Below are positions 54,857 to 57,583 of a stretch of 64,000 nucleotides of DNA, one piece after another. The position numbers and the translations under genes were made by a program. This DNA is from Anaerolineaceae bacterium (GTDB taxonomy: Bacteria; Chloroflexota; Anaerolineae; Anaerolineales; Anaerolineaceae), in the NCBI GenBank assembly GCA_016841365.1, contig JAENZI010000003.1, positions 143,423 through 207,422 of the forward strand, given 5' to 3'. The notes beneath the pieces were generated by a model. That model was given only the letters and a program-made list of their open reading frames with translations. It searched no databases and was not told the DNA's origin. How positions within the stretch are numbered: the stretch's first letter is position 1; each line of letters opens with the position of its first letter.

Positions 54857-55957
54857 ATGAGCAGACGAGCCCATATCACCCTGCGAGACAAGACACTACA
54901 ACTGCCAGCCTTTCTGCCGGATGCTACCTCGGGCTATGTACGGGCGGTTGATGCGCATGACCTGCGACTGGTTAACATCCAGGCGTTGGTAATGAACACC
55001 TTCCACCTGATGCAAAAACCCGGTTCCAGCACCATCCAGGCGTTTAATGGGCTGCACAAATTCTCGGGTTGGGATGGTGTCATCGTGACCGATTCGGGCG
55101 GATTTCAGGCTTATTCACTCATTCACGAATCTGATAAGTTTGGCACCCTTACCGATCGCGGGATCATCTTCCGCCCTGAAGGGAAAAACCGCAAACTCAT
55201 TCTCACCCCAGAGAAAAGCATCCAATTGCAGATCAGCTATGACAGCGATGTGGTCATTTGCCTTGATGACTGCACCCATGTGGATGCACCCCGTGATGCG
55301 CAAGAACAATCCGTCCGACGAACGCTTGACTGGGCACAACGCTGTAAGCAGGAATATGAACATCAAATCGCTCAGCGAGAGATCCCCGAAAGCGAGCGCC
55401 CCCTGATCTTTGGCGTAATCCAGGGTGGCGGCTACCCAGACCTGCGCAAAAAGTGTGCAGAAAGCCTGCTGGAAATCGGTTTTGACGGCTTTGGATATGG
55501 CGGCTGGCCGCTGGATTCAGACGGGAACTTGCTGGAAGACATGGTATCCCTGACCCGCGAGCTGATTCCAGAAGAATTTCCGATGCACGCCCTTGGGATC
55601 GGTCACCCCATCAACTTGATGAAAACCTATCGCTTGGGTTACGATATATTTGACTGCGCCCTGCCCACCCGAGATGCCCGTCATGGGCGCATGATGCGTT
55701 TTACCCAACCGCCCGATCAGCCTCTCGCCGAAGGTGGTGATTGGCTCGAATTTGTTTACATCCAGGATAAAAAATACATCAAAGACAACCGCTCCATCTC
55801 TACCTACTGTGACTGCCCTGTCTGTCTCCATTACAGCGTCGGTTACCTCCATCATCTCTTCAAAACAGGTGATTGGCTATACCAGCGCCTGGCAACACTC
55901 CACAATCTGCGTTTTATGACCCAGCTCACCGAACGGTTACGTCATCATGCCCGGTAA
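54857..55957 (+). CDS. Divergent tRNA-guanine transglycosylase (TGT) family protein
   Basis: VMNTFHLMQKPG...FSGWDGVIVTDSGGFQAYSL...LTPEKSIQLQISYDSDVVICLDDCTHVDA...FGVIQGGGYPDLRKK...GFGYGGWPLDSDGN...YDIFDCALPTRDARHG...CDCPVCLHYSVGYLHHLF. Confidence 0.88.
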   Translation: MSRRAHITLRDKTLQLPAFLPDATSGYVRAVDAHDLRLVNIQALVMNTFHLMQKPGSSTIQAFNGLHKFSGWDGVIVTDSGGFQAYSLIHESDKFGTLTDRGIIFRPEGKNRKLILTPEKSIQLQISYDSDVVICLDDCTHVDAPRDAQEQSVRRTLDWAQRCKQEYEHQIAQREIPESERPLIFGVIQGGGYPDLRKKCAESLLEIGFDGFGYGGWPLDSDGNLLEDMVSLTRELIPEEFPMHALGIGHPINLMKTYRLGYDIFDCALPTRDARHGRMMRFTQPPDQPLAEGGDWLEFVYIQDKKYIKDNRSISTYCDCPVCLHYSVGYLHHLFKTGDWLYQRLATLHNLRFMTQLTERLRHHAR

Positions 55958-56756
55958 CGCCCCCCTTGAAGCCTTGATCTCGGCTGTGCAAGCCAATAAA
56001 AAATATCAATTCATCCTGCCTGATCTCATCCGCAGGATCGGCGAGGATGTGCTAAAGACCAGCAAATCAGGCAAAGCTGCCGTCAAAGCGGTCAGAAACA
56101 AGCTGCATCAGATGGGCGGTGCTTACTTCAAACAGAACCCGGACTATGAGCAGATCAAAATTCGTTTACACGACCTCCCAAATGAAATGGGGGCAGAGGT
56201 GGTCAAACACTTCTGCACAGACGTCATGTGCAGCCATGCTTCCACGGCAGAACGATTGCCCATTTTGGAAGACTTCTTCTTGACCTGCCTGGCGCCCATT
56301 GCACCGGTGACCAGCGTCATTGACCTTGCCTGCGGGTTGAATCCGCTGGCGATCCCCTGGATGCCTTTAGCTGACGGCTTCCGCTACGCCGCCTGTGATA
56401 TTTACCTCGATATGCTCTCCCTCATCCAGGATTTTTTTGAGTACTTCAATCTGCAGGCTGCAGCCTTCCCATATGACCTTCTGGGTGGTGCGCCGACGCA
56501 ACCCGCCCAGGTAGCTTTCCTGCTCAAATCCATCCCGTGCCTTGAACAGGCGGATAAATCCCTTAGCCTGCCGCTGCTCGAATCGATCAACGCCAAGCAC
56601 ATTTTGATCTCGTTCCCTGCTCGCAGCCTCAGCGGTCATAAGAAAGGGATGCCTGATTTTTACAGCGAGCACTTAGATCACCTGCTGGCGGGTAAATTCT
56701 GGCAGGTACAGAAATTTTCTTTTTCCTCCGAAATCGCCTTTTTGGTGTCAAAATGA
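55947..56756 (+). CDS. ArmA/Rmt-like 16S rRNA (guanine(1405)-N7)-methyltransferase family homologue, copy 1
   Basis: KAVRNKLHQMGGAYF...SHASTAERLPILEDFFLTCLAPIAPVTSVIDLACGLNPLAIPWMPLADGFRYAACDIYLDMLSLIQDFF...FLLKSIPCLEQADKSLSLPLLESINAKHILISFPARSLSGHKKGMPDFYSEHLDHLL; strongly reminiscent of ArmA/Rmt. Confidence 0.85.
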   Translation: MPGNAPLEALISAVQANKKYQFILPDLIRRIGEDVLKTSKSGKAAVKAVRNKLHQMGGAYFKQNPDYEQIKIRLHDLPNEMGAEVVKHFCTDVMCSHASTAERLPILEDFFLTCLAPIAPVTSVIDLACGLNPLAIPWMPLADGFRYAACDIYLDMLSLIQDFFEYFNLQAAAFPYDLLGGAPTQPAQVAFLLKSIPCLEQADKSLSLPLLESINAKHILISFPARSLSGHKKGMPDFYSEHLDHLLAGKFWQVQKFSFSSEIAFLVSK

Positions 56757-57583
56757 AAATCAGTGAACATATAACACAGGCTCTGACCAATAAAATCCTT
56801 GATTCGCGAAAGTACCGCCACAGCGGTCTTAATCCTGAAACTGTCCGAGACCTGATCCATCAGGAAGCAGAGAAGTGCTCTTCCGAAAAGCAACTGCTCA
56901 AAGCTGTACGGCGCAAGCTGCATAATATCGTCGCCCCCTACCTCGGCGAACCGGATTATGAGGAACTTCTACCGCGATTACACGCCCTCGATAATACATC
57001 ACTCGAGTCCCCAACCCTGCGTGACCTTTGTCTGGAGGTGCTTTCACGCCACGCCTCGACAGATGAGCGCATTACCTTATTGAGCGAATTCTACGACAGG
57101 CTTTTTGCGGTCACAGGCAAACCACATGTCCTGCTCGACCTAGCTTGCGGACTGCACCCACTGGGTTTCCCTTGGATGGGGCTGCCGGTCACAACCCAAT
57201 ATTATGCCTACGACATCATTCAGCCGCGGGTTGATTTTCTAAACGGGTTTTTCCAAACCATCGGTCTGCAGCCATTGGCTGAAAATCGGGATATCCTGAC
57301 CGATCCGCCAACAATCACAGCCGATCTGGCCATATTCTTCAAAGAAGCCCACCGGGTAGAAAAGCGCAGCCCTGGGCGCAATAAAAGATTTTGGTCTGAA
57401 TTACGCGTAAAAAAACTGGCGGTCTCTCTGCCTGTGGAAAACCTATCTGGCACACACAGCCTGATCGACCAGCATCGGAAATTGGTTTACGACAACCTGC
57501 CCCATGCCGGACCCGTGACTGAAATTTTGTTTGAAAATGAAATCGTATTTGTTATAGATTCCCCCGGAGGTACTCCAACGTGA
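56753..57583 (+). CDS. ArmA/Rmt-like methyltransferase homologue, copy 2 (diverged)
   Basis: KAVRRKLHNIVAPYLGEPDYEELLPRLH...SRHASTDERITLLSEFYDRLFAVTGKPHVLLDLACGLHPLGFPWMGLPVTTQYYAYDIIQPRVDFLNGFF...AVSLPVENLSGTHSLID; starts with ATGA overlap with copy 1. Confidence 0.8.
   Translation: MKISEHITQALTNKILDSRKYRHSGLNPETVRDLIHQEAEKCSSEKQLLKAVRRKLHNIVAPYLGEPDYEELLPRLHALDNTSLESPTLRDLCLEVLSRHASTDERITLLSEFYDRLFAVTGKPHVLLDLACGLHPLGFPWMGLPVTTQYYAYDIIQPRVDFLNGFFQTIGLQPLAENRDILTDPPTITADLAIFFKEAHRVEKRSPGRNKRFWSELRVKKLAVSLPVENLSGTHSLIDQHRKLVYDNLPHAGPVTEILFENEIVFVIDSPGGTPT

Follow-up and report, generated by a model that had tools for sequence, protein, structure and literature searches.

The methyltransferase Sgm and the acquired Rmt enzymes provide protection against aminoglycosides. 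To our knowledge, neither natural hosts nor a native function have been established for the acquired 16S-RMTases, and we did not find literature linking RMTases to Chloroflexi or Chloroflexota. In the case of rmtG, an operon with rsmH and tgt (PMC9311965) and an adjoining ribosyltransferase gene (PMC3904158) have already been reported. In E. coli, RsmI, RsmF and RsmE modify C1402, C1407 and U1498, respectively, around G1405; the modification of C1407 by RsmF is blocked by RmtC and Sgm, and that of C1402 by RsmI is blocked by ArmA (PMC12406665). In TGT, position 233 shapes the base pocket, and Asp280 and Asp102 are the catalytic pair (PMC4425180; TGT residues are numbered as in the Z. mobilis enzyme throughout). 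DpdA proteins are TGT paralogues that modify DNA (PMC6884629), and show that a TGT paralogue can take on another kind of nucleic acid as its substrate.

Layout of the locus and its neighbours

The window (the whole stretch of DNA that was analysed, 64,000 nucleotides) contains two adjacent ORFs, which the original prediction had quoted as genes of the ArmA/Rmt type. Both ORFs are present and their sequences are identical letter for letter to that quotation. They are part of a run of genes in the order RsmI-like, TGT paralogue, copy 1, copy 2 and RsmF-like, the ends of which overlap or nearly touch. These genes and a second RsmI-like gene are as follows.

54133..54855, plus strand: RsmI-like 2'-O-methyltransferase (C1402 in E. 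coli); TIGR00096, 181.8 bits, cut-off 167.9
54857..55957, plus strand: TGT paralogue, Rmt-linked; TIGR00430, 309 bits, barely over the cut-off of 306.75
55947..56756, plus strand: copy 1, Rmt/FmrO-family 16S rRNA methyltransferase, predicted m7G1405; 269 aa
56753..57583, plus strand: copy 2, Rmt-like paralogue; 276 aa
57580..59043, plus strand: RsmF-like m5C methyltransferase (C1407 in E. coli); PRK11933 RsmF, 279.9 bits
62226-62894, minus strand: second RsmI-like gene; 202 bits to TIGR00096

The TGT paralogue and copy 1 overlap by 11 bp, the two copies by 4 bp (ATGA), and the end of copy 2 and the start of the RsmF-like gene by 4 bp. Because the RsmF-like protein misses the NCBIfam RsmF cut-off (279.9 versus 588 bits), we use the term RsmF-like; RsmF is still the best match of all families, and the protein is the sole RsmB/F-type match in the genome (a single PF01189 match). 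The genome possesses two RsmI-type methylases, the second of which lies 3 kb beyond the operon and in relatives is frequently close to RsmE. A promoter scan gave results at the level of chance.

In relatives, copy 1 stays with TGT and copy 2 stays with RsmF, or with RsmE in two families (f9 and f97), and these pairings also hold where kilobases lie between the copies or the copies are found on separate contigs. A close RsmF orthologue (at least 350 bits) is present in the genomes of the window's family that carry FmrO. Two family members, G208 and G418, possess neither FmrO nor a close RsmF orthologue, and the other families of the order gave only distant RsmF matches. In the family member G176, one very divergent FmrO gene is located beside RsmF (locus L075, 7945-8739, minus strand) and the TGT paralogue is absent; this genome possibly represents a natural loss of copy 1 and TGT together, in which a copy-2-like gene was kept. 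The 16S rRNA of the window's genome has the standard CCGCCCGUCAC stretch, which includes G1405 and its context. Given the blocking of RsmF and RsmI described above, the module thus carries enzymes for sites that are disturbed by Rmt activity.

The locus is surrounded by housekeeping genes, among them genes for RNA modification and lipids, and no mobile element was seen among the neighbours. Thus, the chromosomal setting claimed by the original prediction is borne out; the TGT paralogue, which is the most informative neighbour, had been overlooked. Two other settings were considered and rejected: anti-phage defence, because there was no PADLOC match except a partial one of the RsmF-like protein, and a self-resistance cluster of an antibiotic producer, because the neighbours are housekeeping genes. 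Judged from its genes and their sequences, the locus is probably an operon native to the chromosome, the products of which modify the decoding centre of the ribosome, and not an acquired resistance island; we infer the individual roles of copy 1, copy 2 and the TGT paralogue within it.

The Rmt genes might instead serve for self-protection or intrinsic resistance to aminoglycosides of the habitat, as is known for Sgm and the acquired Rmts, and G1405, the nucleotide in question, is present in the 16S rRNA of the organism. We regard this explanation as rather unlikely. Aminoglycoside biosynthesis genes were not found among the neighbours examined, which are RNA-modification, lipid and housekeeping genes, and the Rmt genes are retained family-wide. 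Moreover, resistance alone leaves the TGT paralogue unexplained.

The Rmt-linked TGT paralogue

The TGT paralogue is a second gene in addition to the canonical tgt of the same genome, which is located on contig C19 (G000:C19:259432-260490). Asp280, Asp102, the Zn ligands, Arg286 and Arg289 are common to the paralogue and the canonical Tgts from Z. mobilis and E. coli. Among the paralogues, there are hardly any deviations at the nucleophile Asp280, the general acid/base Asp102, Asp156, Gln203 or the Zn ligands, and in the window protein the catalytic residues Asp102 and Asp280 and the Zn ligands are those of a canonical Tgt. In contrast to canonical Tgt, the preQ1-pocket motif GGL(A/S)VGE at positions 229-235 is replaced by GGWPL(D) in the paralogues, in which the positions after Leu233 vary; the window protein has GGWPLD in place of GGLAVGE, including a change of Val233 to Leu. 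Trp231 and Pro232 are found in all 56 paralogues and in 3/3 plasmid sequences, and in none of nine canonical Tgts. In the tree, the Rmt-linked TGTs form a clade (51 rows, support 100), which is separate from canonical Tgt. Thus, neither the pocket motif nor the clade placement of the window protein is that of a canonical Tgt. No match of the window paralogue to the DpdA profile (NF041059, cut-off 200 bits) was listed, and the same model gave only 21.9 bits for the rmtG-linked Tgt, which is not a DpdA.

Paralogues were distinguished from canonical Tgts by a gap in the scores against the window protein (at least 273 bits for the paralogues and at most 242 bits for canonical Tgts). Outside Chloroflexota, the search covered plasmid records only. 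Within this phylum, the TGT paralogue and Rmt co-occur almost perfectly: the paralogue is present in 72 of the 76 genomes that carry FmrO (71 by the search, and G300 by its locus L014) and in 0/323 genomes without FmrO (399 genomes in total), an association for which phylogeny was taken into account by within-family comparison alone. Four genomes with FmrO have no TGT paralogue, namely G274 and G053, where Rmt is at or near a contig edge, and G176 and G381; the last two show no sign of a contig break and appear to be genuine exceptions. In G381, RsmI is followed directly by Rmt (locus L106, 7059-8710). In 61 relatives, the genomes with an FmrO pair have an extra Tgt, those without FmrO have one Tgt, and G176 has one. 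A looser count, of genomes with at least two Tgts, gave the same trend within most of the families that show both states. Separately, 25 Chloroflexota genomes without FmrO have at least two Tgt matches (for example, G016, G145 and G193); the extra Tgts in these genomes are below the Rmt-linked score range, and some may be split genes and others further paralogues.

We considered whether the TGT paralogue is carried along with Rmt in a cluster of translation genes with no functional tie. The distances in the 71 genomes found by the search bear on this idea in two ways. Most of the pairs are adjacent (not more than 400 bp in 58 genomes, and not more than 8 kb in a further five), and RsmE, RsmI and RsmF cluster at the same place, as would be expected from hitchhiking. 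However, the co-occurrence also holds in the eight genomes where the pair is unlinked, which span four families and have the two genes either separated by 319 kb or on different contigs, although for some of the contig pairs a linkage in the actual chromosome is conceivable. Because, in addition, the paralogue is kept by none of the 323 Rmt-free genomes, hitchhiking is an unlikely explanation.

Residue patterns and age of the two Rmt copies

The relationship of both copies to the m7G1405 family, as claimed by the original prediction, agrees with the profile, the tree, in which both are family members, and the predicted fold. The Pfam profile FmrO (PF07091, cut-off 27) matches copy 1 (1.7e-43, 149 bits) and copy 2 (8.2e-37, 127 bits). 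Because both are under the cut-off of the NCBIfam Rmt equivalog (NF000466, 250 bits; copy 1, 197 bits; copy 2, 155 bits), we assign them to the family and do not call them Rmt equivalogs. When solved structures were searched by sequence, m7G1405 enzymes alone were matched by either copy, and the closest relatives were Sgm for copy 1 (3lcu, 1.9e-35) and RmtC for copy 2 (8ghu, 1.3e-26). AlphaFold models built from eight-row alignments had a pLDDT of 89 for each copy. Their best fold matches in the PDB are Sgm, RmtF, RmtC and RmtB, with TM values of 0.89 for copy 1 against Sgm and 0.77-0.81 for copy 2 against RmtC and Sgm; thus, both models match the fold of Sgm, RmtB and RmtC. Copy 1 has in common with the Sgm-type m7G1405 methyltransferases of aminoglycoside producers (3lcu) the fold, 20 invariant residues and a similar length. 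In contrast, the identity is 28%, the window has a tgt-linked operon and a second, diverged copy, and no biosynthetic cluster was seen at its locus.

The 20 residues are those columns of an alignment (113 family members) that are invariant in Sgm, RmtB, RmtC, RmtF, RmtG and ArmA; the catalytic roles of single Rmt residues considered here rest on conservation and not on published mutants. Copy 1 keeps 20/20 of these columns and, as predicted, has the canonical motifs KSIPCLEQ, SFPARSLSG and KKGM. Copy 2 differs in six of the 20 (the Asn that follows DLACG, Leu in the PxLE block, Phe in SFP, both G and M in the KGM loop, and the Tyr after them) and is for this reason filed as an Rmt-like paralogue and not as an m7G1405 enzyme. 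The loss of the PCLEQ and SFP/KGM signatures from copy 2 had been noted before: the protein reads KEAHRVEK and SLPVENLSGTHSLID at these places, and the loss is seen in 28/28 orthologues. The loop concerned, (K/V)GM..(N/H)Y in the known enzymes (G-M..Y), has no Gly and a replaced Met in all 28 copy-2 orthologues. In the 33 other Chloroflexota Rmts, both residues are kept without exception; copy-1 orthologues have the Gly in 24/24 and the Met in 23/24. The Met of this loop is reportedly of functional importance in RmtC.

In copy 2, the residues of the SAM pocket and those for docking are conserved. The protein has retained Leu-His in the N-terminal domain, the H.STxER block, Asp and Cys in DLACG, the second of the acidic SAM residues, the central Lys and the final Glu. 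In the numbering of the window protein, the residues H57, H100, E105, R106, D129, C132, D154, K197 and E263 are kept, and these nine are nearly or fully invariant across the copy-2 clade, which also has a conserved stretch of its own, KE(A/L/M)(H/P)R.E. A comparison of the congeners G168 and G342 gave dN/dS values of 0.15 (copy 1), 0.14 (copy 2) and 0.05 (TGT paralogue), and the two copies are under the same purifying selection. From this selection and the residue pattern, copy 2 is therefore probably maintained with an altered recognition and is not decaying.

These data bear on the possibility that copy 2 is a non-catalytic partner of copy 1 (a heterodimer subunit or scaffold) or a decaying pseudo-enzyme. 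That a loop invariant in the compared m7G1405 enzymes is gone from all 28 orthologues would fit an inactive protein, and the overlapping reading frames suggest the coupled expression expected of a partner. We nevertheless hold this possibility to be improbable, because copy 2 retains its SAM-pocket residues and a conserved motif peculiar to its clade, and has a dN/dS equal to that of copy 1. Moreover, the copies are physically apart in several genomes, and G176 possesses only the single very divergent FmrO gene adjoining RsmF. Of the subfunctionalisation proposed by the original prediction, a canonical copy 1 and a changed target loop in copy 2 are supported by the residues. The suggestion of a heterodimer, if obligate, is not supported, given that several genomes have the copies on different contigs or kilobases apart and that FmrO is a single-copy gene in most of the other Chloroflexota that carry it.

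In a sample of 399 genomes across the phylum, FmrO was found in 76, mostly as a single copy. Genomes of the genus and family to which the window belongs have, as a rule, two copies; FmrO is absent from the above-mentioned G208 and G418 and from G403, an incomplete genome of the genus, and G176 has one FmrO. A scan of genome contigs with the copy 2 sequence found five close relatives only. The identity between copy 1 and copy 2 is about 29% in the window and 23-34% within one genome across the relatives, and that between orthologues across the family has a median of 43-44%. In the trees, the copy-1 orthologues (24) and copy-2 orthologues (28) fall into separate, family-wide groups and represent two old Rmt lineages, and the copy-2 orthologues form one clade across three families (support 99). 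An exclusive clade of copy 1 and copy 2 was not rejected by the AU test (p 0.54), and therefore there is still room for an ancient tandem duplication, though not for a recent one. On these identities and trees, the two copies are best described as ancient paralogues, and any duplication would be at least as old as the family. Because the order of the copies in the Rmt tree is unsettled (the same AU test) and RmtC and ArmA are on long branches, we do not claim a donor from this tree.

The original prediction had called the copies tandem duplicated, of which the adjacent position stands and a recent duplication does not. A recent local duplication with early subfunctionalisation, in line with the adjacency, the common motifs and the AU result, is very improbable, because copy 2 is a single clade over three families and the copies within a genome are less alike than the family orthologues are.

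The proposed module and the clinical cassettes

The proposed module consists of RsmI, the TGT paralogue, Rmt, the Rmt-like protein and RsmF. In view of its full residue conservation, copy 1 would methylate N7 of G1405 in 16S rRNA. Copy 2 would still bind SAM and would probably dock onto the 30S subunit, with a rebuilt target loop; it may act on another nucleotide or in another context, together with its usual neighbour RsmF or RsmE. The TGT paralogue would be active in base exchange, with the usual mode of preQ1 selection lost. It may insert a different base or act on a different RNA, and may thereby support Rmt-marked ribosomes; this role, and a functional coupling of the two enzymes, are suggested by the change in the pocket and the co-occurrence with Rmt. 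Some clinical cassettes, those of rmtB2, rmtD and rmtG, would be mobilised parts of modules of this kind.

Several plasmids carry such arrangements. In pKP13f, the order is rsmH-tgt-rmtG-truncated rsmI; 6411TF and 2964TF have tgt-rmtD (rmtD1 in 6411TF), and two P. rettgeri plasmids, including p12100-NDM, have tgt-metallophosphoesterase-rmtB2. The two P. rettgeri plasmids are from one strain and carry the same block (L113, 5007-7748, and L129, 4007-6748), which is located between IS91-family and IS26 elements. In the tree, the plasmid Tgts form one branch within the Rmt-linked clade (support 99), the placement of which among the Chloroflexota lineages is not fixed. By their sequences, the Tgts linked to rmtB2, rmtD and rmtG belong to the clade of Rmt-linked paralogues, an assignment for which we found no earlier description. 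As in the window, the adjoining Tgt in these cassettes is of the GGWPLD clade, tgt is directly upstream of rmtD and rmtG, and RsmI is beside rmtG. The cassettes differ from the window in being mobile and flanked by IS91-family and IS26 elements and in having one Rmt, which is about 30% identical. Among plasmid records, Tgts at least 60% identical to the rmtG-linked Tgt adjoin rmtB2, rmtD or rmtG in 12/12 cases. These 12 compare with about 1,590 records that match rmt; most plasmid Rmt records are without the TGT paralogue, so TGT is not needed for resistance. Some of the clinical 16S-RMTase cassettes appear to be pieces mobilised from chromosomal modules of this type, and the suggested relevance of the locus to the ancestry of the acquired RMTases is supported by the tgt-rmt arrangement that it has in common with the rmtB2, rmtD and rmtG plasmids.

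A more far-reaching proposal, which we make tentatively and which may well prove wrong, is that the GGWPLD TGT and Rmt form an unrecognised two-enzyme system of the decoding centre. In rRNA, or in a non-standard set of tRNAs, TGT would exchange a guanine for some base that is not preQ1, and Rmt would natively work together with TGT. The clinical rmtB2, rmtD and rmtG would then be mobilised fragments of this system, and copy 2 would methylate a new target in this region.

A mostly environmental phylum holds chromosomal Rmt operons with a TGT paralogue that is also found beside rmtB2, rmtD and rmtG in hospital plasmids. GGWPLD is a sequence marker with which donors of the clinical cassettes may be traced, and the operon offers a candidate native role for Rmt and a pair of enzymes that is directly testable. 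The annotation "tgt" beside rmt genes would thus conceal a distinct and uncharacterised enzyme.
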